A stretch of DNA of 64,000 nt from Saprospiraceae bacterium (lineage in GTDB: Bacteria > Bacteroidota > Bacteroidia > Chitinophagales > Saprospiraceae): assembly GCA_013001595.1 (NCBI GenBank), contig JABDMH010000073.1, forward strand, positions 1 through 64,000, given 5' to 3'. A program made the translations under genes and the position numbers. Below are positions 20,412-57,666 of the stretch, in pieces (position 1 is the first letter of the stretch; every line of letters starts with the position of its first letter). The notes under the pieces were generated by a model that was given only the letters and a program-made list of their open reading frames with translations, did not search any database and had not been told where the DNA came from.

Positions 20412-20445
20412 CAAAAATACTTGAAATCAGCATTTTACATACAAA
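20412..20445 (-). promoter_or_regulatory. Candidate promoter of the amidase gene
   Basis: On the minus strand, TATTTTTG (20419-20412) is preceded by TTTG (20445-20442) with a 22-bp spacer, matching the Bacteroidota -33/-7 layout. A second TATTTTTG lies 12 bp downstream (20407-20400). The element overlaps the start of lptD, so the divergent genes share this compact regulatory space. Confidence 0.45.
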
Positions 20446-23282
20446 TTTTTATTTTAATGTGTTCTGTGCTCACTTTGGAGGCCCAAGTAAACAGAGATGC
20501 TCCCACCGATGCGGAAATCGGTGAAGACAGCCTTGCTTTACCTGAGATAACTCCTTCTTTTAGTGGTGTAGTAAGATTTTCAGCAGATACGCTTGAAGCT
20601 CTGGTAGATTATAGTGCAAAAGACTCCATACGCTTTGATAACGTAAATCGACTCATTTACTTGTACGGAGAGGCCTCAATTAAATATCAGACCTATACGA
20701 TTACCGCAGATTACATCAAAGTAGATCTTGATAGCAGCATAGCGACGGCGGAACAACTTCCTGATAGTCTAAAGCCCAAAGATGAATTTTTGGCCCTGCA
20801 GGCCGAGGAAGATGAGCCCGTCGATGAAGAATTCAGTGCTCCACCTGTGGATTCATTAGGTCTCGATTCACTTGATTTTGCCCTAAGACGGGATGAAGAA
20901 CCCGATGAGAATAAAGAACGGAATGAGGATGGAAGGCCTTACTTCGACGATGGCAACTCAAACTTTACTGCTGATCGACTACGCTATAATTTTAAGTCAC
21001 GCAAGGGAAAGGTCTACAAAGTAGTGACCGAAGAGAGCCAAATGTTCATAAGAGGTGCAGAGACTAAATTTGTTTCCGGAGGGCCGGATACCAATTCTGT
21101 AGATTACGTCTACAGTAAAGATGTCATCCTAACTACCTGCAGTGCGGAGGAACCACACTATGGCATACGAAGTAAAAAGCAAAAGATCGTCCCCAATAGA
21201 CAGGTGATCGTGGGACCCAGCAACTTGGAGATAGCTGGAGTTCCCACTCCTCTAGTACTACCTTTTGGATTTTTTCCCATTCCTAAAGGCGCACAAAATG
21301 GCTTAATCATCCCCAATGACTATGAGTTTTCAGAACAATGGGGATTTGGTGTGCGCGGGATCGGATGGTACTTTCCCATCAGTGACCACATCGACACCGA
21401 AGTCACCGGCGATATCTATTTTAATGGAAGTTGGGGATTGCAAAATCGAACTAGATATCGCAAGCGGTACAGATACAATGGCAGCTTCAATATAGGCTAC
21501 TCAAATCGAATTGGTGAATCTATATCTGAAGAAGGTGTCACGATGAAAGATCCACAAAAATCTTTTAGCATCAACTGGTCACATACACAAGATCAACGGG
21601 CTCGTCCAGGACAGACTTTTAGTGCCAGTGTACGTATGCAGACCAGCGGATATGAGCAGCTAAATTACAACGATACGCGGGTACTCAATAATCAATACGC
21701 CAGTAACGTATCTTTTCGCAAGACCTTCGCCGGAACCCCCTTTCGTCTTTCTGCCAATGCCAGACATTCCCAAAACACACGCACAGGTGATATGCAATTC
21801 ACCCTGCCAGATGTGCAGCTGAGCATGAACCGCATCTTTCCCTTCAAGCGCAAGAAAAATCCCAATCCGGAACAGAAATGGTATGAAAAGGTCTCCTTAC
21901 TGTATACCGGTAAATTCCTCAACCGCATCCGAACAAAAGATAGCCTCCTATTTCAAGAATCACTGTTTAAGAATGCGGAATTTGGGGCCAATCATGATCT
22001 CAATACCAGCGCCTCTTTTCAGGTGCTTAAGTATTTCAACATTACTCCCACCGTCAACTATTCCGAAAGCTGGTATTTCGAAACGATCCGAAAAATGTTT
22101 GATCCAACCCTCGAACTACGGTCAGATACCATCATCAATCCCTTCGATAGTACCTTTGCCGTCCTTTACGACACATTGTCATTTGGAGAGGTGCTAAAAG
22201 ACACCATCGATGGCTTTCAGGCTCTGCGGGAGTACTCAGCCAGCATTGCCCTATCTACCAACATATTTGGATCTTTGGGTGTAAATCGCACTAAGGGCTG
22301 GTTTCGAGGCATTAGGCACGTGGTCAAGCCAAGTATATCTTTCAATTTTTCACCCGATTACACTGATCCTGCGCTTGGCTATGTAGATTACGTCCAACAA
22401 GACATACGTAGTGAGGAACTTGACGAATATTCGATATTCGAAGGTGCACTCTTTGGCTCTCCACCCCAATCTGGCAGAAGGATGGCTCTGGGATATGCAA
22501 TCGGCAACCTGTTAGAAGCCAAATTCTTTTCCAAAAAAGACTCGACGGCGAAAAAAGTCAAATTGTTCAATACCATATCGGTCAATGGTTCTTACAATTT
22601 TGTAGCTGATTCCCTAAAGTGGTCTCCCGTCAATCTCAGTGGTACTACCACCTTTTTTAAGGGCCTATCCAGAGTTAACTTCAGCGCAGTTTTTGATCCC
22701 TACCTCAAAACAGCTAGTGGTAGACGCATCAATCGACTGGTTTTTGATGAACGAAAGCGGCCCATACGATTCGATCGAGCAGCAATCAGACTGAGCAGCG
22801 GCATGACCGTTGGTCAAATCAAAGATCTCTTCAAACCTACCGAAGAGGAGCAAACCAACGGCAGAGGTAGCAGAGGTTCGAGAAGTTCTTCTAGTCGCTC
22901 TGAGCGCAGCAGTGATTTAGAAGAATCCATCACTGATCTCTTCAAAGACTTCCGTCTAAATCACGACATCGTACTCATGTGGACAACCGATAGCGATGGA
23001 AGCAAAAAATTGGACGTAACGACCAACTCAATTAATACCAGAGGAAATATTCGGTTGACTCCTAACTGGGATCTCTCTGTCGGCAATATTGGCTATGACT
23101 TTCGCCGCAAACAAATCACCTATCCCTACTTAAGTTTCACTCGAAACCTTCACTGCTGGGAGATGGCTTTCAGTTGGGCTCCTGAGCGTGGCACTTATAG
23201 CTTCACACTGCGCGTCCGTGAAGGTCCACTCAGCTTCATCAAGATCCCTTATCAGAAAAATAATCAGGATATTAGATTCTAG
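20421..23282 (+). CDS. lptD: LPS assembly outer-membrane protein LptD
   Basis: Beta-barrel that inserts lipopolysaccharide into the outer leaflet. A signal peptide (LMCSVLTLEAQ) is followed by an OstA-like periplasmic region (YLYGEASIKYQTYTITADYI, residues ~75-95), an acidic linker (~130-180), and a long barrel with alternating aromatic strands. SNLEIAGVPTPLVLPFGFFP and NGLIIPNDYEFSEQWGFG are typical LptD segments near 270-310. A Ser/Arg-rich loop (~815-835) looks extracellular. The start is TTG 20421, because a stop codon lies 15 bp upstream. ATG 20457 would cut off the signal peptide. 953 aa is usual in Bacteroidota. Confidence 0.88.
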   Translation: MKSAFYIQIFILMCSVLTLEAQVNRDAPTDAEIGEDSLALPEITPSFSGVVRFSADTLEALVDYSAKDSIRFDNVNRLIYLYGEASIKYQTYTITADYIKVDLDSSIATAEQLPDSLKPKDEFLALQAEEDEPVDEEFSAPPVDSLGLDSLDFALRRDEEPDENKERNEDGRPYFDDGNSNFTADRLRYNFKSRKGKVYKVVTEESQMFIRGAETKFVSGGPDTNSVDYVYSKDVILTTCSAEEPHYGIRSKKQKIVPNRQVIVGPSNLEIAGVPTPLVLPFGFFPIPKGAQNGLIIPNDYEFSEQWGFGVRGIGWYFPISDHIDTEVTGDIYFNGSWGLQNRTRYRKRYRYNGSFNIGYSNRIGESISEEGVTMKDPQKSFSINWSHTQDQRARPGQTFSASVRMQTSGYEQLNYNDTRVLNNQYASNVSFRKTFAGTPFRLSANARHSQNTRTGDMQFTLPDVQLSMNRIFPFKRKKNPNPEQKWYEKVSLLYTGKFLNRIRTKDSLLFQESLFKNAEFGANHDLNTSASFQVLKYFNITPTVNYSESWYFETIRKMFDPTLELRSDTIINPFDSTFAVLYDTLSFGEVLKDTIDGFQALREYSASIALSTNIFGSLGVNRTKGWFRGIRHVVKPSISFNFSPDYTDPALGYVDYVQQDIRSEELDEYSIFEGALFGSPPQSGRRMALGYAIGNLLEAKFFSKKDSTAKKVKLFNTISVNGSYNFVADSLKWSPVNLSGTTTFFKGLSRVNFSAVFDPYLKTASGRRINRLVFDERKRPIRFDRAAIRLSSGMTVGQIKDLFKPTEEEQTNGRGSRGSRSSSSRSERSSDLEESITDLFKDFRLNHDIVLMWTTDSDGSKKLDVTTNSINTRGNIRLTPNWDLSVGNIGYDFRRKQITYPYLSFTRNLHCWEMAFSWAPERGTYSFTLRVREGPLSFIKIPYQKNNQDIRF

Positions 23283-45385: not shown

Positions 45386-45564
45386 AAGGACCTCCAAACG
45401 CTACCCCATTAATATGGGGTTTAGAAATTCATTATCTGAACTTACCTTTATAGTACCAAAATAGTAATTCCTACCTGAGGTAGGATGCTACGTTTTAATA
45501 AGGCTTTAACGTAACACACACTCAGACGAAAAGCTCCGAAAAGTTAAATTTTCGGAGCTTTTTT
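45386..45564 (+). ncRNA. Candidate structured small RNA, copy A
   Basis: A ~179-bp element in the convergent space after the EamA gene. It opens with AAGGACCTCCA, then a 7-bp hairpin ACCCCAT-TAAT-ATGGGGT (45403-45420). A second hairpin CCTACC-TGA-GGTAGG is at 45470-45484. The block AGGCTTTAACGTAACA lies at 45501-45516. It closes with a perfect 14-bp terminator stem (45529-45542 with 45549-45562) and a T-run. The 5' and 3' blocks recur in the same order at 57475-57666 while the centre has diverged, as expected of paralogous small RNAs. I do not recognise the family. The closing hairpin may also end the rnf transcript. Confidence 0.55.
45529..45564 (+). terminator. Intrinsic terminator closing element A
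   Basis: Perfect stem AAAAGCTCCGAAAA/TTTTCGGAGCTTTT around a 6-nt loop, with the T-run continuing to 45564. It can terminate plus-strand transcripts from the EamA gene or the candidate small RNA. Confidence 0.8.
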
Positions 45565-45671
45565 CATGCTAGTGAATGCCAACTCCATGTCCTTTGTTAG
45601 TCCATAGCATCGTCGATGGATAGATCCGACCTAGGCATAGATTTCAGACTGCGAAAATCTTAGGCCTCCAT

Positions 45672-46538
45672 TCAGGAATGCCCTACTCCGCGCTCCCCCT
45701 TTCTAATGATCTTTTTACTCTCTTTCCCTTTAATGATCCCAAGTTTCTCATCCAACCAAACGATGGCACCGGTTGGACACCGTTGGATAGGGTCTTTCGT
45801 CGAGTGATTTTCACGATAGTTGACAACCGGTAGATTATTTACCATTGTGATGAGGTCTCCTCCAGCGTCCAAGGCACATTTTCCACAAGCAGTACACCCT
45901 ACTTGGCAGTCCTCAAGCACTTCATCGCCGTGCTCCAGATTCTTACAAGCCACCCAAAGATGATGACTGATGGGTTGAAGTGAAAATAGGTCTTTGGGAC
46001 ATGCCTCGACACAATCGCCGCAGGCAGTACATTTGTCTACGTCCACCACTGGTAGTGAGAATTCATTCATCACAATGGCGTCAAAGTCACATACAACTTC
46101 ACAATCACCATGACCCAGGCATCCCCAGAAGCAGCCTTTGCCACCGCCAGATACTAGTGAGGCCGCCTGGCAGCTTTTTAGCCCTTGGTAGTGTGCCCGA
46201 TTGATCGCTACATTTGTACCTCCAGCGCATGCTAGGCGTGCGACTCGTTTTTCCTCAGCACCCAGTGCAACCCCTAAAAATTCAGCAATTTTCTGACGCC
46301 CTGAATCTGTGCTGACTGTACACTTTCCAGGCAAAGCCTTTTCACCCACTAGAGCCTCAGCAAAAGGACGACAACCCGGATAGCCACACGCTCCGCAATT
46401 GGCATGAGGCAGCATATCTTCAACAACATCGATTCTAGGATCTTCATACACGTAGAGTTTCTTGTTGGCAATTACCAACATACCTGCTAGAATCAGGGTT
46501 AATCCACCCAATGCACTTAAGGCAATAACAATCGTCAT
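45672..46538 (-). CDS. rnfB: RNF complex subunit B (Fe-S protein)
   Basis: Ferredoxin-accepting subunit of the ion-translocating ferredoxin:NAD oxidoreductase. One N-terminal membrane helix (IVIALSALGGLTLILAG) is followed by a Cys cluster NCGACGYPGC near residue 47. Two 4Fe-4S motifs come later (CTACGDCVEACP near 174 and CQVGCTACGKC near 215), with additional Cys (CFWGCLGHGDC) near 148 and CP at the end. 288 aa, normal for RnfB. ATG 46538 is preferred. The longer frame begins with TTG inside the upstream gene. Here rnfB is last in the operon, separated from rnfA by two extra genes. Confidence 0.93.
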   Translation of the reverse strand: MTIVIALSALGGLTLILAGMLVIANKKLYVYEDPRIDVVEDMLPHANCGACGYPGCRPFAEALVGEKALPGKCTVSTDSGRQKIAEFLGVALGAEEKRVARLACAGGTNVAINRAHYQGLKSCQAASLVSGGGKGCFWGCLGHGDCEVVCDFDAIVMNEFSLPVVDVDKCTACGDCVEACPKDLFSLQPISHHLWVACKNLEHGDEVLEDCQVGCTACGKCALDAGGDLITMVNNLPVVNYRENHSTKDPIQRCPTGAIVWLDEKLGIIKGKESKKIIRKGERGVGHS

Positions 46539-46545
46539 AATGTTC

Positions 46546-47400
46546 TCAATAAATGACTTCGGCCCACTTCTTTCCGGCAATAAGTTCAGCTTTGCGTGTC
46601 TCCCATTTTTCTTTGGATCCCATGATGTTTATAAAAGCCTTGTTGAGCACTTCAAGGATTTTCTCATATCCGGCCACAAAAATGTGTGTATTGGACTGCG
46701 ATAACATCTCAATGATTTCTGCTGCTCGGTCTTCAATTGCACTATCTAGTTCAATGGGGTCTGACCAGTGTGGACGGGGACTCAAAGCATGGAAGGCCTC
46801 GAAGGTAGTTTTGTCGTAGTAGTTGGTCAAGTCGCCGTCTTCATCATTCATGTAGAGCAGCTCCAATCCGCTTCGGGCTCCGTAAAATAGCCTGATTTTT
46901 CCTGTCCAATCCCCAACATTCTCATAGATGTGCTTGACAAACGCTCGGAAGGGCGCAATACCCGTTCCCATACCAACAAGAATTAGATTGGAACTTTTGT
47001 CTTCAGGTACCTCAAAGGGTAGATTAAATGGCCCAGTGATGGTAATATGATCACCCTTCTTTCGGTCACACAAATAATTTGAAGCCACGCCATCATACAA
47101 CTCTCCATTGAAATCATCAACATAGGAACATCTCTTCACCAGGAAAGTAATCAACCGCTTGCCATTCTGGCGACTTGGAAGATCAGCTACACTATAAAGT
47201 CTATGGTGCAGGGTGTTACCAAACTCTCCTCGACTATCCACCAATACGCCAAAACTCTGATCAACCTTGCACTCGAATTCGGAATCAACTTCCAAAAGAA
47301 TTTCACGTACCTCCTCGGTCTCAGGGGGTGTGAGGCGTTCTGTCTTTTTGATGGTCGCCCTATACCTCGTTTCAGTATCGTAGTCTGCTAAATGTGCCAT
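46546..47400 (-). CDS. Ferredoxin-NADP reductase-like flavoprotein
   Basis: FAD/NAD(P) oxidoreductase of the plant-type FNR superfamily. HHRLYSVAD (residues ~65-75) is the RxYS FAD-binding motif, and GVASNYLCDRKKGD the phosphate-binding loop. LVGMGTGIAPFRAFV near 148 binds the nicotinamide nucleotide. FVAGYEKILEVL holds the C-terminal nucleotide site, and the chain ends in EVIY, a terminal Tyr as in NADPH-type FNR. It has no ferredoxin domain of its own. It is inserted between rnfA and rnfB, suggesting it shares ferredoxin with the RNF complex or forms an extra NAD(P)H module. Confidence 0.8.
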   Translation of the reverse strand: MAHLADYDTETRYRATIKKTERLTPPETEEVREILLEVDSEFECKVDQSFGVLVDSRGEFGNTLHHRLYSVADLPSRQNGKRLITFLVKRCSYVDDFNGELYDGVASNYLCDRKKGDHITITGPFNLPFEVPEDKSSNLILVGMGTGIAPFRAFVKHIYENVGDWTGKIRLFYGARSGLELLYMNDEDGDLTNYYDKTTFEAFHALSPRPHWSDPIELDSAIEDRAAEIIEMLSQSNTHIFVAGYEKILEVLNKAFINIMGSKEKWETRKAELIAGKKWAEVIY

Positions 47401-47410
47401 AGCTTAAATT

Positions 47411-47608
47411 TTATGATTCAGAAAATTGCTTTTGTTTTAGTTCACATGCCGTAGTGCATCCACAATTTGAGCACTTGGTTCGGCCTGCCATCACATCCTC
47501 ATCCGTGACGTAGTCAGCAAAGACGCGACCCCACCAGTGCTGCACTGCGATCCAGCCCAGCATAAGTAGTACGATCACCCCAATTCCAACCACCATAGAT
47601 TCAATCAT
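47411..47608 (-). CDS. Small membrane-anchored Cys-rich protein, possible RNF maturation factor
   Basis: 65 residues: one N-terminal membrane helix (MVVGIGVIVLLMLGWIAV), a short linker and a C-terminal CSNCGCTTAC motif that could bind iron or an Fe-S cluster. The layout resembles NqrM, a small helix-plus-Cys protein needed to load iron between the NqrD and NqrE subunits of Na+-NQR. RnfA and RnfE are the RNF homologues of those subunits, and this gene lies 12 bp after rnfA. The role is inferred from architecture and position only. Confidence 0.6.
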   Translation of the reverse strand: MIESMVVGIGVIVLLMLGWIAVQHWWGRVFADYVTDEDVMAGRTKCSNCGCTTACELKQKQFSES

Positions 47609-47620
47609 TGTGATTCATAT

Positions 47621-48202
47621 TTATGCTCCAAGGCCCGCAAAACCCATAAATGACAGGGACAAAATGCCGGCGATCAGAAGTGTTAGCGCGGTACCTTTAA
47701 TTACTTCGGGTACATCTGCAAAATTTAGTTGTTCCCTCAATCCAGCAATGAGTACCAGCGCAAGGGTAAAACCTGCTCCAGCCCCCAAAGCGTAGACAAA
47801 GCTCTCCACAAATCCATATCCTTTGTTCGTCTGAAATAACGCCAATCCCAGGATTGCACAATTTGTAGTAATAAGCGGCAGAAAGATTCCAAGTGCCCTA
47901 AAAAGAGTAGGACTCATCTTCTTGATGAACATCTCTACCAACTGTACGGTAGAAGCAATGACGACAATGTAACTTATCAATTGCAAGAATGGAGCATTGA
48001 TCGCCACAAGAAATTGATGGATGCCATAGGCACACATCGAACTAATCAGCATCACAAAAGTGACCGCTCCACCCATCTTCGTAGCTGTTTCCATCTTGCC
48101 GGAGACACCGAGAAACGGACATATCCCCAGAAAGTAGGCCAACACAAAGTTGTTAACCAGGCTGGCATTGATGAATATATAGGAAAGTGATTCGTTGGTC
48201 AT
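47621..48202 (-). CDS. rnfA: RNF complex subunit A
   Basis: Six-helix membrane subunit that pairs with RnfE around a central iron-sulfur site and takes part in ion translocation. FLGICPFLGVSGKMETA and the buried NCAILGLALFQTNKGYG carry the conserved Cys residues. 193 aa is typical. Overlaps rnfE by 4 bp. Confidence 0.95.
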   Translation of the reverse strand: MTNESLSYIFINASLVNNFVLAYFLGICPFLGVSGKMETATKMGGAVTFVMLISSMCAYGIHQFLVAINAPFLQLISYIVVIASTVQLVEMFIKKMSPTLFRALGIFLPLITTNCAILGLALFQTNKGYGFVESFVYALGAGAGFTLALVLIAGLREQLNFADVPEVIKGTALTLLIAGILSLSFMGFAGLGA

Positions 48203-48843
48203 GTTTTTGCTTTTCGTGCTTCCATTACATTAAATATGAGTAACCATAGCGCCAAGGTGAAAAATCCTCCCGCCGGAAGTATCATGACAATCCACTCTTG
48301 AAAATTATCAGGCAAAACGCCTAGACCAAAGATGGTTCCATTGCCAAACAGCTCGCGCACGGCACCTAGGCACAGCAATGCAAAAGTGAATCCCACACCC
48401 ATCCCCGCAGCATCTAGAATAGATTTACCCACGGTATTTTTAGATGCAAATGCTTCCGCTCTGCTCAAGATGAGGCAATTCACTACGATCAGTGATATGA
48501 ATGCACCAAGACTCTTATGCAAATCAACGCTTATCGCCTGAATGACATAGTCTGTAATCGTGACAAAAGTGGCAATAATTAGAATGTAGGATGCGATACG
48601 TACTTGCTTAGGTATGAAATCTCGCAAGATGGATACTAGAATATTGGACATAAGCAACACAAAAGCTGTGGCCAGTCCCATAGCCAGCGCATTCTCGGCT
48701 GTGTTCGATACTGCCAAGACGGGGCACATACCCAGCACCTGAACAAACACGGGGTTGTCCCTCCACAATCCCTTGATAAATTCATCTGTGGAAGGTGCAG
48801 CTCCTGCAGTGGGAGTTATGCCTAATTCTTTATTCGCTGCCAT
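48199..48843 (-). CDS. rnfE: RNF complex subunit E
   Basis: Integral membrane partner of RnfA, homologous to NqrD. GLWRDNPVFVQVLGMCPVLAV near the N-terminus and VNCLILSRAEAFASKN near residue 115 contain the conserved Cys residues. The N-terminus has a short polar extension of about 25 residues (TPTAGAAPSTDEF) before the family start. Overlaps rnfG by 14 bp and rnfA by 4 bp. Confidence 0.94.
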   Translation of the reverse strand: MAANKELGITPTAGAAPSTDEFIKGLWRDNPVFVQVLGMCPVLAVSNTAENALAMGLATAFVLLMSNILVSILRDFIPKQVRIASYILIIATFVTITDYVIQAISVDLHKSLGAFISLIVVNCLILSRAEAFASKNTVGKSILDAAGMGVGFTFALLCLGAVRELFGNGTIFGLGVLPDNFQEWIVMILPAGGFFTLALWLLIFNVMEARKAKT

Positions 48844-49534
48844 TGTGGTCTTCTTTCTTTGTTAGTACCTCTAGGCTCTTAGCCAATCTTGGTGCCCATG
48901 ATCCTGTACTTCCTCCCAGTATTTCACCGATTGCCCGGGATGATATAGTGGCCCCTGTGATTCCATCAACTTCCCAGGGATTTTCCTTCTTTCCCTGTTT
49001 TACTGGTACAATCTTATTTTTCACCCGCTCCTTATTATCAGTCAGGGAGACGTCTAGTGCTTCAAAATTGGCTAGAAAAGCTTCATCCTTTTCGATCTTG
49101 TCACCTAGACCCGGTGTTTCCTTACTTTCCAGGACGTAAAATCCGATGATCTTTTCTTGTTGTATGTCGTAGCCATAAAGGATGCGAATTACATCGGCAA
49201 ATCCCATTCCGCTGGCTTCAATAGCTACACCCACCAGCTGATTATTCTCATCGTAACCAGCATATACCAACTGATCGGCTTCAGTGTCATCAGCTATTAA
49301 AGACAACTGATTTTCTGAATCGAATGCAAAAGTTTGCTTTGAAGTGATGCCTGGAACCACTTTAAAAATTGCTTTTTCCAGGGCCTCCGCTTTGTTTCTT
49401 TCAATGCGAGGTAATGTTCCCTCAAATGTCAGTACGATTAGCAGTGCACAGAGCAGTCCAATACCAACCATCGCTTGAAGCATTTTTGCGCTGCTTGGTT
49501 GAGCAACAGGTTGTATGGAGGTAGTAGTACTCAT
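48830..49534 (-). CDS. rnfG: RNF complex subunit G (covalent FMN protein)
   Basis: Periplasmic flavoprotein anchored by one N-terminal helix (MVGIGLLCALLIVLTF). The FMN-binding domain is marked by GFYVLESKETPGLGDKI near residue 128 and the flavinylation motif GITGATISS near 190, in which the Thr of GAT-I/T-S carries the covalent FMN. The flavin transferase ApbE is not in the window. 234 aa, normal. Overlaps rnfD by 4 bp. Confidence 0.94.
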   Translation of the reverse strand: MSTTTSIQPVAQPSSAKMLQAMVGIGLLCALLIVLTFEGTLPRIERNKAEALEKAIFKVVPGITSKQTFAFDSENQLSLIADDTEADQLVYAGYDENNQLVGVAIEASGMGFADVIRILYGYDIQQEKIIGFYVLESKETPGLGDKIEKDEAFLANFEALDVSLTDNKERVKNKIVPVKQGKKENPWEVDGITGATISSRAIGEILGGSTGSWAPRLAKSLEVLTKKEDHNGSE

Positions 49535-50553
49535 GACACATCGTTGGTGTTAGCAGTACCATAAACTCGTGGCCTTATCATGTTATCGATATGTGGAGAG
49601 ATGGCATTGGCTAGGAGGATGGCATACATCACTCCCTCAGGTAGCCCTCCCCAAATTCGAATTACTACTACAAGCAGGCCGATAATGGCTCCATAGACGA
49701 ATACGCCCACAGGAGTAATGGGAGAGGCCACCATATCTGTAGCCATAAAAACTGCACCCAACATTAGTCCGCCGGAAAAAAGCATGAAGACCGGCGAAGG
49801 GTAGATTTGATTATCAATCAAATAGAGTACTCCGCTAATCAGGAATACGGTTGCGAGTATCGAAACAGGAATTCGCCAATTCATCATTTTTCTTGCTACG
49901 AGATAGATGCCTCCCAAGATGATGAGTACTGCACATGTTTCTCCCGTAGACCCACTGATGACTCCAAAGGCTAGATCTGAAGTGCTGGTTGTAATTTGGT
50001 CGAACTTAAATGCTGCAAGTGGTGTGGCTCCAGTCAAGGCATCAACTGCCGGAGGTTCCATAAATGGAAAGGTAAAGATCGAGGCAGCAACACTAGTGAA
50101 TCGGTCTGCAAGGAAGGCAGGATGCCAAGTGGTAATGGCCACGGGAAAGGCAGCCTGAAGTACGGCTCTTCCCACCAGTGCCGGATTAAATACATTGTAT
50201 CCTAAACCTCCAAAGGTGTATTTACCCAGGCCAATAGCAATGATCCCTCCACAGAAAGTCATCCAGAGTGGAAAACTTGGCGGAAGGGTCAGCCCTAACA
50301 ACAAACCGGTGATCACCGCAGACCAATCAGAAATCGTACTCTCCTTATTGGCCATTCGACAAAGTACATGTTCCGTAGCTACACAAGCAATGGTGGCCGT
50401 AGCAATAACGAAGAATGCACTTAGACCAAAGGAAAAAATGGCGAAGAGGGCCACTGGCAGCAGTGCCCAGACCACGTTTTGCATGATGCTGTCCGTGCTT
50501 GTACCCTGGCGAATATGGGGAGAAGTACTTATGTCTAAAGTCTTAGTCAGCAT
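49531..50553 (-). CDS. rnfD: RNF complex subunit D
   Basis: Multi-helix membrane subunit homologous to NqrB. Conserved elements are ISTSPHIRQG at the N-terminus, GGLGYNVFNPALVGRAVLQ near residue 125 and DALTGATPLAAFK near 175, whose Thr is the covalent FMN site. ATG 50553 starts directly before the conserved region. A longer frame overlaps rnfC by 35 bp. 340 aa. Confidence 0.94.
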   Translation of the reverse strand: MLTKTLDISTSPHIRQGTSTDSIMQNVVWALLPVALFAIFSFGLSAFFVIATATIACVATEHVLCRMANKESTISDWSAVITGLLLGLTLPPSFPLWMTFCGGIIAIGLGKYTFGGLGYNVFNPALVGRAVLQAAFPVAITTWHPAFLADRFTSVAASIFTFPFMEPPAVDALTGATPLAAFKFDQITTSTSDLAFGVISGSTGETCAVLIILGGIYLVARKMMNWRIPVSILATVFLISGVLYLIDNQIYPSPVFMLFSGGLMLGAVFMATDMVASPITPVGVFVYGAIIGLLVVVIRIWGGLPEGVMYAILLANAISPHIDNMIRPRVYGTANTNDVS

Positions 50554-51904
50554 GCTCCATAGTTTGTTTACCCGCAATTCGCTTTCTCACAATGGCTTTT
50601 GATGAACGGAACTGTTGGACCAAGGGTATGTGCGATGGGCATACATAAGAACACGATCCACATTCGAAGCAATCCATCAAATTATACTCGTCTGCCATCA
50701 AATCATAAGCTTTAAACTTGGCAAGTATCCCCAACTTGGATGGGTTCAATGACAGAGGGCATGCATCTACACAGGCCCCACATTTGATACATGGATAGAC
50801 CTTTTCAGGCCTACTCACCTCATCCTTTGTGAATACTAGTATTCCTGAAGTCCCCTTAACTATCGATATATCTAGGTTAGAGACAGCCACGCCCATCATA
50901 GGACCACCCATATATACTTCACTGATTCGTTCATCTGCTCCCACCTGCTCCAACACAAATCTGAGTGGAGTTCCGATGGGGATACGGTAGTTACCTTTCT
51001 TTTCTATACCAGGTCCTGTGATGGTAACGACCCGCTCCTGAATCCCACGGCCATGAGGCAATAGTCGGCCTATCTCTGCAGTGGTAGCTACATTCACGGC
51101 AACGACGTTGACATCTATGGGAAGACCACCAGAAGGAACTTCCCTGCCTAAAATGGCGGTGATCAGCATTTTTTCCGAACCCTGAGGGTATTTAACTGGT
51201 ACCACCTGGACCCGCACATTGCTACCTTCGGGAATAAGTTGCTCTAGGTGATCGGCCGCATCTTGTTTGTTTGCTTCGATGCCAATAATTGCCTCTGCAG
51301 CACCAGTACTTTTTAGCAGATACTTAATCCCCATAAGAATGTCCTCACCTTGTTCCAGCATCACTCGATGATCCGTTGTTAAGTAAGGTTCACATTCAAT
51401 ACCATTGATCATCAAGACATCACAATGCTTGCCTTCCGGTACTTTCAGTTTCACATGGGTAGGAAAGGCTGCACCTCCCAGTCCAACGATTCCAGCATCC
51501 TGAATTCCTTGTAGAATCTCGTCAGAGCTTGCAGATGTCAAATCGATTGGAGTCCCATCGAGCACTTCCTGACTTGCCGATGGGAAAGCTTCTAAGTAGA
51601 TACCGGGTACCATCTTACCTGAAATCGATGGCACGCTAGCAATTTTACGGACCGTTCCAGAGACCGGAGCGTGAAGTGGGACAGACACATATCCACCCGC
51701 TTTTGCCAACAATTGACCACGCATCACCTCTTGTCCTTCCCTGACCATAATCTCCGATGGTGCACCGATATGTTGCACCATCGGTAGTATGATCACCGGC
51801 GAAAATGGAAATTGCCGGATCGCCAATCCGTTGGTAGAACGTTTGCGTTCTGGAGGATGGATTCCATGTTTAAATGAATTGTTTCTGAAATTAAACCAAG
51901 CCAT
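50543..51904 (-). CDS. rnfC: RNF complex subunit C (Fe-S, NADH-binding)
   Basis: Peripheral cytoplasmic subunit carrying FMN, NADH and Fe-S sites. The N-terminus has the barrel-sandwich region with VPLHAPVSGTVRKI. The Complex-I-51-kDa-like nucleotide fold has GIVGLGGAAFPTHVKL near residue 137, where the Gly-rich loop binds FMN/NADH. Two ferredoxin motifs are at CIKCGACVDACP (~373) and CFECGSCSYVCP (~416). 453 aa is within the normal range. It starts 25 bp after nifJ, which makes a common transcript likely. Confidence 0.95.
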   Translation of the reverse strand: MAWFNFRNNSFKHGIHPPERKRSTNGLAIRQFPFSPVIILPMVQHIGAPSEIMVREGQEVMRGQLLAKAGGYVSVPLHAPVSGTVRKIASVPSISGKMVPGIYLEAFPSASQEVLDGTPIDLTSASSDEILQGIQDAGIVGLGGAAFPTHVKLKVPEGKHCDVLMINGIECEPYLTTDHRVMLEQGEDILMGIKYLLKSTGAAEAIIGIEANKQDAADHLEQLIPEGSNVRVQVVPVKYPQGSEKMLITAILGREVPSGGLPIDVNVVAVNVATTAEIGRLLPHGRGIQERVVTITGPGIEKKGNYRIPIGTPLRFVLEQVGADERISEVYMGGPMMGVAVSNLDISIVKGTSGILVFTKDEVSRPEKVYPCIKCGACVDACPLSLNPSKLGILAKFKAYDLMADEYNLMDCFECGSCSYVCPSHIPLVQQFRSSKAIVRKRIAGKQTMEHAD

Positions 51905-51928
51905 GCGAATTTCGGGTTCTTCAGATTG

Positions 51929-54900
51929 TCAATTAAACTTTTCACCTCGCTTGATCCACTTGTCAATATCTTTTGCCTTCCGATCTGCAGGCAAACCGGG
52001 ATGGATCACTCGTGCGGTGCATTTCTCAGCTGCCTTTACCAGATCTTCATATGGGCCGCCATTCGGATCGGCAATATAGGCTCGCTTATTATTATTGTAA
52101 GCAAAGATCTTAGAGTTGAGATTTATACACTCATCGCACGAAGTACATTCCTCTGTTTCAAGCCATGGTGCCATATACCCACCATCGGCTTGAGGTGCTT
52201 CCGCTGTCGTTGTTTCGGTTGCTGCACTGGTTTGGCCCGCTGCCAAATCGATAATACCACTTCCATCACCACCAGCCATTTTCATCAAACCTTGTGCGAT
52301 ATTACCTACGACTTCAGCTCTGATCTTTCCTTCGATATCGACTTCCTCTTGAGGCTCAGTATCTACACCAGCAAGTGCTTTCAACATAATCCAAAAGTCA
52401 CGTCGCTCCTCGCAGGACTCTACGATCGGCTTAGCAACAAGTACTCGACTCAAATGCTGTTTACGATCTACTGCCCAAATGAATGGGAATTTGCCTTCTC
52501 GTTCATCGGCATCCATTTCCAGAAAATCTGCAAGCACCACCATATTTTCATTCCAAGCATCTCGTGGCACTTTACGGAAGTGTTTTCTAAAGCGACCTTC
52601 AGTGATGGCGAAGTCGGCAAAAGTCATGGCAACTTCCATTGATTTTTCGATGCCATTCTCTAGGTATGTTAGCTCATAGGTAGGCCATAAGCTATCCATA
52701 GCGGGATTTCCGCTCAGATCAAAACCATCAGCAGCTGTCACACCATTTTCCGGATTGTATTTATATACTGGATAAGCCCTTGACTCGACCGCCAACTTGG
52801 CCTGATGAACACCTAGATCATCTCCCACACCATGTTCTGGCTGGCAGGTCGTATATAGATTAAAAATTGCTGGTCGCTTAGCCATGAGTCCATCAATAAA
52901 TCCCTCGATCATTTGGCTGGTATTGGCTAAGGTAGATTGCAACACATAGGTATTGCGATGTGCCATGGCGATCAACCCAATTTCTTTACGTGGCTCAGCT
53001 TTACCTTTTTGAACTTTACCATATTGAGCCATATCAGAAACCTGGCCGATAAATCCAGATGTACAAGCCTGGCCTCCTGTATTCGAATACACTTGAGTAT
53101 CGACAACGATTACTTTTATGGGCTTGCCAGATGCCATCATTCTCGATAGATTTTGGAAACCAATGTCGTACATTGCCCCATCTCCACCCAACGCTACTAC
53201 AGGAGGACATAGCAACCATTCATCATCGCTAAATTGCTCCCAGGTGAAATACGTAAAAAAGTCGTCGTGCTCACTGGCATCGTATTTTCCATTCAATTCA
53301 AGTTCTGCTTTGCGCACCGTCGCAAAGCCTTCCGCCATTTTTGCCATATGTCCTTCGAAAATTCCCATCGCCATAGAAGTGGAATCCTGAAATAGGTGAT
53401 TGGCCCATGGGAAAGGATAGGGATTAAATGGATAAGTACTGCCCCAGACTGAGGTACAACCAGTGTTGTTGCAAATACCCATACTGGTTCGTCCGTTTCC
53501 AGTGGTACCATGTTCATATTTCCATTTAAGCTTCTTCAACTTTGCCAGCAGCTGCGTCACATCTTTCAACCACCCCTGATCTATAGGCTCACTTCCCTGC
53601 TCCGACTCCAGTCGTTGCGCGATACTGGACATGGTCAGATCGCTATCTTGCATCTCCATTACGATTTTTGACATCGTATCTGCATCACTGACATCGACAG
53701 TACCCATTAACTTTTTCTGAATATGGCTTTCTAGTTTGCCAATGAGTTCATCAAGATGAGCCACATGTTTTTCAACTCGAGGTTGCATTAGTGATTCCAC
53801 CGTAGCTACAAAGAGGTGGATTACTGATTTTTCAGAACAACCTACACAGGCTCCATCACCACTTGCAAGCTTCAGGTATGCATTCTTATCAAGTAAAATG
53901 GTTTCTAAAGCTCCGATCTTTTCTTCCAGATCATCTACCCGGCTGTACTTCTTCGGTGTAGTTGGAAGATCCAACCAAAAGTCCCACTCGTTACGCAGCT
54001 TGGCGATTGACTCTTCAGTCTGAACGATGGGTCTAAGGGCATCATCATCGCATACTTCTACACACTCCATGCAACCTTTACAGGTAGTTGGGTTGATCGT
54101 GATGCTAAATAATCCTCCACTATTGGGTTGATCCTTTTCATGAAGATCGTAATAAGGTCTAGTCAGGGCGAATTGAAAATCTCCTAACTCCTCTTTAAAC
54201 CAATCAAACTCCTTCTTAAGATCAGGACCTTCTTCACTCTCAATTATAGTCTGATCGATGGCATGGTGAATGAAGTCATTGACAGTCGCACCATTTTTAG
54301 AAGCCTGGAAAAGTTCCCGGATCTTACCTTCCATTGTTCGAACAGCCTTTGGCAGAAATTCTACTTTACCATGCTGTTTTTTCACGCGAGTGAGCACTGT
54401 ACTTAGCACGTCTGATAGATCACTCACCAATCCGGGAATGGCAGTATCTGGACAAACCGTATAGCAATCGCCACAAGCCGTACAATTATTGGCAATCCAC
54501 TCCGGATGTTCGAAACGGATACCAGTCATATCGCGGAAAAGTGAACTGACTGCAGGCATCACACTCAGCCCAATAAACGGATCGGTAATGTTATCATTAC
54601 CCATGCCTCGCAAGTAGAAATTGCCAGTCTGGTCCCAAAAGCGATGAATATCACTCATCTGAGATTCGCTTTTCGGGATGTTTTTCATCATCTCAGGGAT
54701 AGGCACCACCATGGCTCCATTCGTCTTATTTTCATGTCCAGCCCCCAGTACTTTATTGGTGACTTCATGCACTTCGTCAAATCCTCTACGTACCACCCGC
54801 ATATTGTCATCCACTACACGTTGGCCCTTGCCACCAAACTTCTTCTGCAACTGATCTTCAATTGCCTTGAGTAATTTCGCTTCGTCCATTCCAGTTTTTT

Positions 54901-56884
54901 CCATCAATGGTGAAGCGGCAAAGAAAGCACCTTGAAAGGCGATACCTTGCATCCTCAATTGAAGTTCAGGATCCGTCGCTTCTTCTCTAGCGATCCTAAA
55001 CCCATCGATATAAAACAAGTGGATGTCATTATTTATAATGACTTTCTGATATGGTTCGGGAATGTCCGCCCATACTGCAGCCGGACTATCTTTCTCACTT
55101 TGAATGATAAAACACCCTCCCTTCTTGAGACCAGCCAACGCATTGGTATGTTTAAATACATTGGGATCAGGTGACAGTACTACGTCGACAAAGAAATACT
55201 CACAATTGATGCGTATGGGTTCTGGGGCAGCAGCGAGATAGTATGTGGTGGGTTGACCCTTCTTCTCAGATCCATATTTAGGATTGGCTTTGATGTCGTA
55301 TCCCAGTAGGTCAAACAGTGTCATGGCCAAATTCTTACCGGTAGTTATCGCTCCCCATCCACCCACGGAATGGAAGCGTACGGTAACGGCTTCTTTGGGC
55401 ATGAGGTTGGGATTCTCAGATCCCTTGATGGCCAACTCCTTTACATGAGGGTAGGCATCCTGGATCGTCTCCTGGTATATTTGCTGCTTAGGAGTAAAAG
55501 CCTGGTCACGAATAAAATCAATAGATAAATAGTACTGTTTCTTGCGTTTGCCATCCGGCAACATGTTTTCAATGGCTCCGATAATTCCTTCCGGTTGCAG
55601 ATCTCGACTCCCCATTCCAAATGATCCAGAATAGATCGGAGGAATGTCCGTTGATTTGTAAATGGGAAGTTCGGGATAAGGCAAGTTTTTCGGATTGGCA
55701 CCGTTTTCAACACATTTGGTCATTACAGCGCGTACCTCGCGAGCCAGTGGTAAGTCCGATGCCAGGGGTTGATCTAATCGCTCCAGGATAGATACTCCCT
55801 TTTTCCCTTGTAAGAGCTTCCCGACCAGATCACCGGGAAATGGTCTAAACATCAAAAGATCGACCACTCCTACTTTGATTCCTCGAGTCTCCCTAAGATA
55901 ATCGACGACAACTTCTGAACTGGGTACGACACTGCCTTGACCCAAAATCAAATAGTCAGCATCATCGGCTCGATAAGACATAACACGTGAATAACGACGT
56001 CCTGTCAATGCGTAAAATTCCTCAAAAGCCTGATCAGTCAACTCCCTTATGTGGTCAAAAAAGAAAGGGCGCTGTGCCGCAACACTCTGCATGTAAGAAT
56101 CCTGGTTTTGTACTATACCCGCCATTACCGGATTGTCAACATCCCAAAGCTCAGGGATACGGCGACGCGTATCACCATAGATAATCTTCTGCGCGGGAGT
56201 GGGGGTCTCTATGATGTCATCGGGACGCCCCAAATATTCTTTGATCAGCGCCCGCTCAGGTAGTTGCAAGGACTCAATCAAGTGCGTTGTCAGGAAACCA
56301 TCCTGAGCGACCACACCTGGTGTTAGTGCTAGTTCCGCTACCCGATGTGCGATGATATTCAAGTCGGCTACATGTTGGGCTTTCTTTGCAAATAGCTGAA
56401 AGAATCCGGTATCGTCGATGGCATGATAATCGTCATGACCAGCATGTACATTTAATGTAGACTTCGTCATGGCCCGAGCCCCAATATTCAATATATAAGT
56501 AAGGCGCTTCCCAACAGCTGCATAAAGGGATTCATGCATATAGGCAATACCCTGCCCGGATGAGAAATTTGCCGCCCGAAGACCGGTCATTGACAGACCA
56601 GCGGTAACCGCTGCAGCCGCATGTTCTCCTTCGGGTTCGATGAAGATCAGCGGTCGATCGGAAATATTTAGATGTCCTTTTGCAGCAGCTTCAGCCCAGT
56701 ACTCCCCCATCTGAGTAGAAGGCGTAATCGGATATGCACCTGCAGCATCAGATGATTCTCGCTCACACATGATCGCTGCTGTATTGCCATCCATCGCCAC
56801 ACGTACGCCAGGATATTTGAAGTCTTTATTTTTTTTGTCCATAACCAATTGTTTGTCCTTTGCAAAGAAGTTTTTTGTTTTCAT
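51929..56884 (-). CDS. nifJ: Pyruvate:ferredoxin (flavodoxin) oxidoreductase, extended form
   Basis: Oxidises pyruvate (or another 2-oxoacid) with CoA to acyl-CoA, CO2 and reduced ferredoxin. All core parts are present: GAYPITPSTQMGEYWAE at the N-terminus, the gamma-type domain (FHSVGGWGAITTGKNLA, ~residue 505), ferredoxin motifs CTACGDCYTVCP (~798) and CKGCMECVEVC (~938), the proximal-cluster Cys in DGACVGCSEKS (~1011), and the TPP site ALGGDGAMYDIGFQN (~1233). At 1651 aa it is some 450 longer than usual forms. Additions include a spacer between the ferredoxin motifs, a coiled-coil insert at ~1020-1130 and a C-terminal module with CTSCDEC (~1581). It heads the rnf operon. Confidence 0.93.
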   Translation of the reverse strand: MKTKNFFAKDKQLVMDKKNKDFKYPGVRVAMDGNTAAIMCERESSDAAGAYPITPSTQMGEYWAEAAAKGHLNISDRPLIFIEPEGEHAAAAVTAGLSMTGLRAANFSSGQGIAYMHESLYAAVGKRLTYILNIGARAMTKSTLNVHAGHDDYHAIDDTGFFQLFAKKAQHVADLNIIAHRVAELALTPGVVAQDGFLTTHLIESLQLPERALIKEYLGRPDDIIETPTPAQKIIYGDTRRRIPELWDVDNPVMAGIVQNQDSYMQSVAAQRPFFFDHIRELTDQAFEEFYALTGRRYSRVMSYRADDADYLILGQGSVVPSSEVVVDYLRETRGIKVGVVDLLMFRPFPGDLVGKLLQGKKGVSILERLDQPLASDLPLAREVRAVMTKCVENGANPKNLPYPELPIYKSTDIPPIYSGSFGMGSRDLQPEGIIGAIENMLPDGKRKKQYYLSIDFIRDQAFTPKQQIYQETIQDAYPHVKELAIKGSENPNLMPKEAVTVRFHSVGGWGAITTGKNLAMTLFDLLGYDIKANPKYGSEKKGQPTTYYLAAAPEPIRINCEYFFVDVVLSPDPNVFKHTNALAGLKKGGCFIIQSEKDSPAAVWADIPEPYQKVIINNDIHLFYIDGFRIAREEATDPELQLRMQGIAFQGAFFAASPLMEKTGMDEAKLLKAIEDQLQKKFGGKGQRVVDDNMRVVRRGFDEVHEVTNKVLGAGHENKTNGAMVVPIPEMMKNIPKSESQMSDIHRFWDQTGNFYLRGMGNDNITDPFIGLSVMPAVSSLFRDMTGIRFEHPEWIANNCTACGDCYTVCPDTAIPGLVSDLSDVLSTVLTRVKKQHGKVEFLPKAVRTMEGKIRELFQASKNGATVNDFIHHAIDQTIIESEEGPDLKKEFDWFKEELGDFQFALTRPYYDLHEKDQPNSGGLFSITINPTTCKGCMECVEVCDDDALRPIVQTEESIAKLRNEWDFWLDLPTTPKKYSRVDDLEEKIGALETILLDKNAYLKLASGDGACVGCSEKSVIHLFVATVESLMQPRVEKHVAHLDELIGKLESHIQKKLMGTVDVSDADTMSKIVMEMQDSDLTMSSIAQRLESEQGSEPIDQGWLKDVTQLLAKLKKLKWKYEHGTTGNGRTSMGICNNTGCTSVWGSTYPFNPYPFPWANHLFQDSTSMAMGIFEGHMAKMAEGFATVRKAELELNGKYDASEHDDFFTYFTWEQFSDDEWLLCPPVVALGGDGAMYDIGFQNLSRMMASGKPIKVIVVDTQVYSNTGGQACTSGFIGQVSDMAQYGKVQKGKAEPRKEIGLIAMAHRNTYVLQSTLANTSQMIEGFIDGLMAKRPAIFNLYTTCQPEHGVGDDLGVHQAKLAVESRAYPVYKYNPENGVTAADGFDLSGNPAMDSLWPTYELTYLENGIEKSMEVAMTFADFAITEGRFRKHFRKVPRDAWNENMVVLADFLEMDADEREGKFPFIWAVDRKQHLSRVLVAKPIVESCEERRDFWIMLKALAGVDTEPQEEVDIEGKIRAEVVGNIAQGLMKMAGGDGSGIIDLAAGQTSAATETTTAEAPQADGGYMAPWLETEECTSCDECINLNSKIFAYNNNKRAYIADPNGGPYEDLVKAAEKCTARVIHPGLPADRKAKDIDKWIKRGEKFN

Positions 56885-56924
56885 ACCATCTCAAATTACC
56901 ATGATGAGTTTGTTGCCTGATCCA

Positions 56925-57158
56925 TTAGAGATTCTTCATTAGGTAGTTAACCTCCACGCGATCTGAATGGCAACTGTTGAAAAGTTTGTAGACAGCTGCA
57001 CGAAATCCAGAAGTTGATAATTGATTCAACTCACCTTCGATCTGATTCAGAAGCGGCCTTACATCTGAAGAGAAATTGGAATTTCTATTATAAATCATAT
57101 TAGAGTAGCTTCTGAACGGACCTGCCGCGATGTTTTTCTTTGAAGAGTTAAATTTCAC
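56925..57158 (-). CDS. Hypothetical small protein upstream of nifJ, doubtful
   Basis: A 77-codon frame opening with GTG and ending 40 bp before nifJ on the same strand. The product is basic with a helical C-terminal half (LLNQIEGELNQL, then FRAAVYKLF) and no membrane segment or known motif. It could be a leader peptide gene, a gene remnant or chance. No family is recognised. Confidence 0.25.
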   Translation of the reverse strand: MKFNSSKKNIAAGPFRSYSNMIYNRNSNFSSDVRPLLNQIEGELNQLSTSGFRAAVYKLFNSCHSDRVEVNYLMKNL

Positions 57159-57350
57159 GTTATCTATTTTCCTACCTGATGAATAAGGTCACTCGTAGAG
57201 ATGATTTCGGTCAATACAGGTTTGCTTAGGCCTAATCCAACTGTACGGTGTTGACGGCAGAAGTCCTTACCACTAACCTTTAAACATTACACGTTCGAAG
57301 GGGTGTTACTCTCTCTAGCTATGCGTGTCATGCAAACCTTTAAATTCACA

Positions 57351-57369
57351 CGGCGGAATATATCCGCCG
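57351..57369. promoter_or_regulatory. GC-rich palindrome in the nifJ upstream region
   Basis: Perfect 7-bp inverted repeat CGGCGGA/TCCGCCG around ATATA. It stands out in AT-rich surroundings and has no T-run on either side, so an operator is more likely than a terminator. The binding protein is unknown. Confidence 0.35.
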
Positions 57370-57474
57370 CTACTCCTGGGATTCACTTACCTCGCTATTC
57401 CATCCACCTTCTACTTTTTCTACCTTATTCACACCGCAGTAAAGAATGCAGAACCCTCTGACTATCATCAGTAT

Positions 57475-57666
57475 AAGACCTCCATTTAACGTTGCCCCAT
57501 GATCATGGGGTTGGAAGTACTTGTCAATGAGTATAACTTAGTAGAAGTAAGATTTAAGTCTTTTTTGATCCTTTTTCATTTTGATAGTTAGATAGATTTG
57601 TGAGGCTTTAATGCAACAATGCTCAAAATTAAACTCCGGAGGTTTCAAGCTTTCGGAGTTTTTTTT
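57475..57666 (+). ncRNA. Candidate structured small RNA, copy B
   Basis: A ~192-bp relative of the element at 45386-45564. It opens with AAGACCTCCA, followed by the 16-bp perfect palindrome CCCCATGATCATGGGG (57495-57510) and GTTGGAA. AGGCTTTAATGCAACA lies at 57603-57618 (14 of 16 bases match copy A). It ends with a CTCCG...CGGAG hairpin and eight Ts. The 5' end AGACCTCC can also pair with GGAGGTTT (57638-57645) inside the terminator arm, so a switch between two folds is possible. The centre is unlike copy A. Orientation is opposite to the nifJ-rnf operon. Confidence 0.55.
57631..57666 (+). terminator. Terminator-like hairpin closing element B
   Basis: AAACTCCG (57631-57638) pairs with CGGAGTTT (57654-57661) and the T-run continues to 57666. 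It equals the terminator of element A in position and core sequence, although the loop is longer. Confidence 0.65.

Follow-up and report, generated by a model that had tools for sequence, protein, structure and literature searches.

The stretch of Saprospiraceae bacterium DNA analysed here (the window; 64,000 nucleotides of contig JABDMH010000073.1) carries a nifJ-rnf operon and, just outside the two ends of this operon, two related intergenic elements, E1 (45386-45564) and E2 (57475-57666). A preliminary description, made from the letters of the window, had considered them to be two paralogous structured elements, possibly trans-acting RNAs, attenuators or boundary repeats of an acquired module. 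Both are indeed found at these places and both contain, in order, ACCTCCA, the palindrome CCCCAT-N4-ATGGGG, GTT, the block AGGCTTTAA-Y-G-Y-AACA and a CTCCG/CGGAG terminator followed by a T-run. Our analysis makes us fairly confident that E1 and E2 represent two dispersed genes of a multi-copy family of sibling small RNAs, each of them with its own regulated promoter and under two-component control. Each element most probably consists of a regulated promoter followed by a small-RNA gene, rather than of a single RNA of about 180 nucleotides (nt), and the family probably serves as output of a sensor kinase and its response regulator in the Saprospiraceae, a family of aquatic bacteria.

In the 6.2-Mb genome the palindrome occurs exactly four times, every site being part of a copy of the element, and the backwards pattern does not occur at all, so the shared blocks are not due to chance. 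Where two elements had been described, the genome thus contains four related copies: E1 (palindrome at 45404), E2 (57495) and the tandem pair E3 and E4, which is located on another contig directly behind the genes of a REC-GerE response regulator and a Reg_prop/Y_Y_Y/HisKA_3 kinase. E1 as a DNA query matches E4 (E 5e-20) and E3 (6.5e-16); with E2 alone as the query no second copy was found in the search (next best E 0.024). Judged by its sequence, E2 is a divergent member; what it shares with the rest of the family is the operator, the -7 box, the seed block and the terminator. All five other genomes of the genus that were searched contain arrays of two to four copies behind the same gene pair. 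A covariance model (R1), run on 199 Saprospiraceae genomes, gave matches in 50 genomes at E <= 0.1. The strong matches outside the genus were those in G116, G166 and G066 (genera g111 and g61), where the copies adjoin an orthologous kinase/regulator pair, and altogether homologues were found in eight other genomes and three genera. Seven of the eight weak covariance-model regions examined consist of the operator and an RNA of family B or C (see below), and in the eighth, L241, the match seems to be to a terminator. The DNA search gave five weak matches outside the genus (E 0.0018-0.0095), the one in G019 being an operator site.

In an alignment of 20 copies from six genus genomes, the palindrome is found at a nearly constant distance from a TA-N2-TTT-R box and the intervening DNA is unconserved. 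Among 49 directional readings of palindromes, picked regardless of what follows, TAnnTTTR occurred 22 times within 60 nt, 16 times at offset 23 and six times at four other offsets; as many of these palindromes belong to related array copies, the counts cannot be taken as independent. In the 63 classified sites, each of the 18 columns of the spacer (indices 20-37) contains 0.02-0.19 bits, against 1.34 bits at index 19, which belongs to the -33 TTT and lies outside every search pattern, and 1.65 bits at index 18, which is fixed in the exact pattern used for named genomes and free in the joint two-mismatch pattern; both of these patterns selected for the -7 box. The boxes agree with the Bacteroidota primary-sigma consensus, TAnnTTTG at -7 and TTTG near -33, as given in the available part of PMC7366714, the final base of the -7 box often being A in genus g1. 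With the start set 4 nt after the -7 box, the centre of the palindrome falls at about -42.5. Class II activators bind around -42. The constant spacing to the -7 box, the unconserved spacer and the position of the centre suggest that CCCCAT-N4-ATGGGG is most probably a DNA operator and not an RNA hairpin, and the first ~68 nt of the element (operator, spacer and -7 box) most probably lie outside the transcript.

The RNA behind this promoter, hereafter family A, usually shows a 5' hairpin, then the unpaired block AGGCTTTAAYGYAACA, then an intrinsic terminator. The terminator helix exhibits two-sided changes in 5 of 11 pairs (20 copies), whereas the palindrome shows none in its seven pairs; a covariance-model search and a survey of compensatory changes, as the preliminary description had proposed, have yielded both homologues and covariation in the terminator. 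These support the earlier suggestion of related small RNAs which might act in trans, although the predicted RNAs measure about 111-122 nt and not the 179 and 192 nt of the elements. In some copies the 5' hairpin is of different sequence, e.g. CCTACC/GGTAGG in E1 and TGTTGG/CCAACA in L238. Scans with Rfam, including 6S RNA (which we take to be RF00013), gave no match at the gathering score in the window or in 13 related loci with members of families A, B, C and D, and every match of permissive scans of the window stayed under the gathering score of its family, in line with the earlier failure to recognise the RNA. The long closing stem of 6S RNA, which could not be shown before, is absent from the folds of E1 and E2; these are made up of hairpins, a stretch left open and a terminator, without such a stem around a large central bubble, and 6S RNA was rejected as a candidate. 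The same applies to a small open reading frame, ATG-AGG-CTT-TAA, which is present in some copies and reads differently in E1, E3 and E4 and is thus not conserved. The proposal of an attenuator found no support either, as no same-strand gene that E2 could lead is found behind it.

The operator is not restricted to family A. Allowing two mismatches, the joint operator-promoter pattern was found in 52 of 199 Saprospiraceae genomes and in 40 of 112 genera, with 107 site readings (six palindromes are read both ways) versus 8 for the reversed pattern; at one mismatch it was found in 7 of 62 Saprospiraceae genomes and in none of the 186 genomes from the rest of the order. Within named genomes the exact pattern matched 49 stretches, most of them titled Saprospiraceae, Lewinella or Phaeodactylibacter, some listed under broader names only and one titled Marinimicrobia; named carriers are Phaeodactylibacter xiamenensis, P. 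luteus and Flavilitoribacter nigricans. The 92 distinct sites in the loci examined were grouped into family A (23 sites), family B (7, with the hallmark AATTTTGTTGTAAGGGT), family C (10, AAGGGGGA-type) and family D (23, AACAAGAAGCGTGTTT, often within CCTTCCTATTCACCTATCAACAAGAAGCGTGTTTAC), while 29 were left unclassified. The latter comprise four regulator-gene promoters, two degenerate A copies and two D-like sites, the rest being located before signal-peptide-like gene starts or unclear.

We are slightly in favour of the view that this two-component system of the Saprospiraceae has kept its regulator and operator-promoter and that the RNA behind was swapped several times for unrelated sequence (families A, B/C and D). 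In that case non-coding RNA would have been its main ancestral output, and Bacteroidota might have here their first described regulon of sibling RNAs under two-component control. To our knowledge, small-RNA regulation in this phylum is known mostly from Bacteroides. Among the matches listed, and in the portions of the texts available, the literature on small or noncoding RNA of Saprospiraceae or Lewinella contained nothing on this subject, and that on two-component systems or response regulators with small RNAs in Bacteroidetes/Bacteroidota contained no such circuit. The evolutionary exchange of small RNAs could be studied in a system where the operator stays and its RNA products change. From sequence alone, a complete and testable circuit of kinase, regulator, operator, promoter and several RNA families is obtained in an environmental family. 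An operator can also be proposed for the Reg_prop/HisKA_3 - REC-GerE pair, as can candidate RNA families without a match in Rfam 15.

The link with the kinase and regulator genes is seen in the position of the sites. Of the 23 family-A sites, 20 follow the regulator gene at a distance of 9-891 nt and on its strand, the exceptions being E1, E2 and one site at a contig end; in family D, 11 of 23 lie 8-202 nt behind the orthologous kinase gene, again on the same strand. As A and D are both found behind the kinase pair, two unrelated RNAs occupy the same place, and the operator also serves RNAs elsewhere. A regulator match at 1e-40 was obtained in 89 of 199 Saprospiraceae genomes, namely in 49 of the 52 genomes with an operator versus 40 of the 147 without (Fisher p 2.6e-18, not corrected for relatedness). 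Within 5 kb of a regulator match lie 34 of the 107 site readings, 31 of these on the strand of the regulator. In eight of the 199 genomes (G003, G019, G222, G116, G024, G142, G099 and G061) an operator is located directly before the regulator gene (6-115 nt), in some cases with variant letters, e.g. ACCACAT-N4-ATGTGGT. The GerE helix region is closely alike in 15 aligned regulators of both lineages, with L300 being the most different. Regulator-type site, promoter, terminator, intergenic siblings and linkage to regulator genes, i.e. the sequence features expected of a small-RNA output of a two-component system, are all found.

The regulator of E1 and E2 would most likely be the REC-GerE (NarL/FixJ-type) protein encoded just upstream of E3/E4 in the same genome, with the Reg_prop/Y_Y_Y/HisKA_3 kinase as its partner. 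In its phosphorylated form it would bind the palindrome ACCCCAT-N4-ATGGGGT at about -42 and activate, rather than repress, a Bacteroidota primary-sigma promoter (-33 TTT/TTG, -7 TAnnTTTR). The predicted transcript of ~111-122 nt, usually with 5' hairpin, unpaired block and intrinsic terminator, most probably works in trans, pairing with mRNAs over short and imperfect stretches. The positions of the predicted features are given in Table 1.

Table 1. Predicted features of E1 and E2 (window coordinates)
Feature	Position	Strand	Basis or remark
E1 operator, ACCCCAT-TAAT-ATGGGGT, predicted REC-GerE binding site	45403..45420	+	centre about -42.5 from predicted start
E1 promoter: TTT (-33 region, 45420-45422), unconserved spacer, TACCTTTA (-7 box, 45443-45450)	45420..45450	+	fixed spacing; sigma-ABfr consensus (PMC7366714, available part)
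E1 predicted small RNA	45454..45564	+	start inferred from promoter, +/-3 nt
E1 conserved unpaired block AAGGCTTTAACGTAACA, candidate seed	45500..45516	+	copy alignment
E1 intrinsic terminator	45530..45564	+	fold; helix covariation
E2 operator, GCCCCAT-GATC-ATGGGGT	57494..57511	+	pattern match
E2 promoter: TTG (-33 region), spacer, TAACTTAG (-7 box, 57534-57541)	57511..57541	+	2 mismatches to joint pattern
E2 predicted small RNA	57545..57666	+	start inferred, +/-3 nt; 5' hairpin not clear
E2 conserved block GAGGCTTTAATGCAACA	57602..57618	+	copy alignment
E2 intrinsic terminator	57630..57666	+	fold; helix covariation

Several observations weigh against sibling RNA genes under the control of this regulator. 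The 5' hairpin folds weakly (mean z -1.8 over 23 family-A RNAs, E2 +0.8) and none of its nine pairs shows a two-sided change in the genus alignment, where 86.5% of cells are paired, so that its support comes from folding and not from covariation. The complement of the 16-nt seed, with up to two mismatches, was found in the window genome in the RNA genes E1, E2 and E4 only and in other genomes at control level, and hence no long antisense target was found. Among the other 12 family-D sites, nine have no same-strand kinase match over at least 1.5 kb of upstream sequence examined (for three of the 12, only ~1 kb or less was examined), and no kinase or regulator match was present in the sequence examined around families B (0/7) and C (0/10). 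Furthermore, 40 of the 89 regulator genomes have no operator at two mismatches, three of the 52 operator genomes (G018, G036 and G153) have no regulator match, and the regulator gene of the window genome lacks a preceding operator.

In a duplex scan of 26 gene starts of the window, the LptD-like gene at 20421 (20421-23282, plus strand; Pfam PF19838) ranked first for both E1 and E2; the complementarity of its leader to the seed blocks of E2 and E4 begins 34-35 nt ahead of the start codon given for the gene. The match is weak and was reached by 7 of 500 shuffles for E2, 8 of 500 for E4, 64 of 500 for E1 and 128 of 500 for E3, so that only E2 and E4 stand clearly apart from the shuffles. Together with lgt (prolipoprotein diacylglyceryl transferase), which is found under the operator, it hints at the cell envelope, as a lead only. 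In detail, a one-mismatch palindrome (L201:4826-4843, i.e. G000 C153:29825-29842) is located between lgt and a divergent family B RNA consisting of TCAAATTTTGTTGTAAGGGTGAA and a terminator, and an equally spaced AnnTTTA box is present; this arrangement was also observed in G001, G003, G004 and G005.

Instead of base pairing, the RNAs might titrate an RNA-binding protein in the manner of RsmY/Z with RsmA/CsrA, which we regard as rather unlikely. RsmX/Y/Z are GGA-rich CsrA/RsmA sponges, and GacA, which controls them, is a regulator of the NarL/FixJ family. The multi-copy arrays and the long invariant unpaired block would be compatible with titration too, no long antisense partner was found for the seed, and 8 of 10 RNAs of family C carry at least two GGA, which makes such repeats common in this family. 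In the other families, however, at least two GGA within the first 95 nt are rare (1 of 23 in A, 1 of 7 in B, 4 of 23 in D), unlike in Rsm/Csr sponges. ANGGA, which a sponge would expose in multiple copies, occurs in 3 of 23 A and 9 of 23 D RNAs, counted regardless of loop exposure. In addition, the invariant blocks of A and D are wholly different, which would be unexpected for one protein ligand. The logic of the GacA - RsmX/Y/Z system, as far as the available part of PMC2375449 describes it, is nevertheless similar to that of sibling RNAs under a two-component regulator.

Sibling small RNAs under one response regulator are familiar from other bacteria. Like the Qrr RNAs of Vibrio, the RNAs described here would be siblings activated by one response regulator and contain a conserved unpaired core. 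LuxO, the regulator of Qrr, works with sigma-54; unlike in Qrr, the sigma-54 -24/-12 pattern was found at 0 of 63 classified sites. The best analogue would be the small RNAs of streptococci that depend on the OmpR-type regulator CiaR (csRNAs). According to the accessible part of PMC3091779, several sibling small RNAs per genome are under this one response regulator, each with a regulator-type promoter and a terminator in an intergenic region and commonly with two stem-loops that flank a conserved unpaired stretch, and csRNAs of other streptococci were found by searching for regulator-type promoters and then for a terminator. Behind this one kind of promoter, 40 RNA types have been predicted (PMC3091779, PMC8186281; parts available). 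The csRNAs contain stretches complementary to the Shine-Dalgarno sequence and start codon, and CiaR binds the direct repeat TTTAAG-N5-TTTAAG (PMC3091779, same part), whereas the Saprospiraceae site reads as the inverted repeat ACCCCAT-N4-ATGGGGT and the system, unlike CiaR, comprises a REC-GerE protein and a Bacteroidota promoter.

It is also possible, though unlikely, that the palindrome is bound by a regulator other than the neighbouring REC-GerE protein. Such a protein would account for the 40 regulator-positive genomes without operator, for the three genomes with sites and no regulator match and for the window genome, whose regulator gene has no operator before it. On the other hand, the co-occurrence in 49 of 52 genomes, the eight of 199 genomes in which an operator immediately precedes the regulator gene and the operator sites adjoining kinase/regulator genes in both the A and the D lineage point to the REC-GerE protein itself. 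Variant operators of the form ATCCCAT-N4-ATGGGAT were seen in G099:C160 and in G018; in G099 one lies before and one behind the regulator gene, which suggests co-evolution of operator and regulator.

We consider it very unlikely that the whole element of 179-192 nt is one structured RNA in which the CCCCAT/ATGGGG helix and a closing stem AAG(G)ACCT/AGGCUUU belong to the RNA structure, although the full E1 folds well (z -5.5) with this closing stem in its minimum-energy structure and the full E2 reaches z -2.3, if without the stem. The common start AAG(G)ACCTCCA is shared by E1 and E2 as described before, but neither the whole of it nor the AAGGACCTCCA arm is seen before E3, E4 or the copies of relatives. 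The palindrome had been taken for a hairpin, but a DNA operator explains it better: of its seven pairs, none shows a compensatory change (five being invariant and thus uninformative) and one is broken in 4 of 20 copies, the constant spacing to the TAnnTTT box and the unconserved spacer fit a promoter, and the same palindrome is located upstream of protein genes, namely lgt and the regulator gene itself.

It is hardly credible that the nifJ-rnf operon is marked or controlled by E1 and E2, be it as boundary repeats of an acquired module or as dedicated regulators: their position on both sides of it in the window genome is in favour, but homologues adjoin the two-component system, the closest nifJ relative lies on a contig without operator, five array-bearing genus drafts have no close nifJ, and for neither E1 nor E2 does nifJ rank among the six best duplex scores of the 26 gene starts. 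In detail, the window PFOR (nifJ) has one close relative in seven other genomes, in G116 (82% identity; 39% in G166), and the contig in question carries none of the operator sites of that genome; the five other genus genomes, which are incomplete drafts with RNA arrays present, gave no nifJ match or only a partial one of 27% identity. The bracketing of nifJ-rnf is thus not conserved and probably incidental. The gene at 48199-48843, taken as a later rnf gene, is in the top-six duplex lists of both E1 and E2.

Further observations concern single loci. In L247, L258, L265, L271, L274 and L281 the operator-promoter is located before protein-gene starts, several of which look signal-peptide-like on inspection by eye; in these lineages the regulon thus includes protein genes too. 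Palindromes within apparent coding genes (G002 C616, G002 C727 and G004 C19) were taken as chance occurrences. A viral scan for AGGCTTTAAYGYAACA matched at least 120 stretches, the 16-base pattern being too short for specificity there. In L242, L260 and L288 a family C RNA is located a short distance before a same-strand gene with an FAD-dependent oxidoreductase-like start (CIVGAGPGGAATALKLS). The last array copies in G003 (L173:6732-6892) and G005 (L175:5688-5846, minus strand) have kept operator, promoter and terminator and lost the family-A seed block. Finally, the family-A array is followed in L171, L172, L173, L174, L234 and L235 by a convergent TlpA/thioredoxin-like gene (named by its WCxPC motif), and the window genome carries an SPFH/Band 7 gene at this place.

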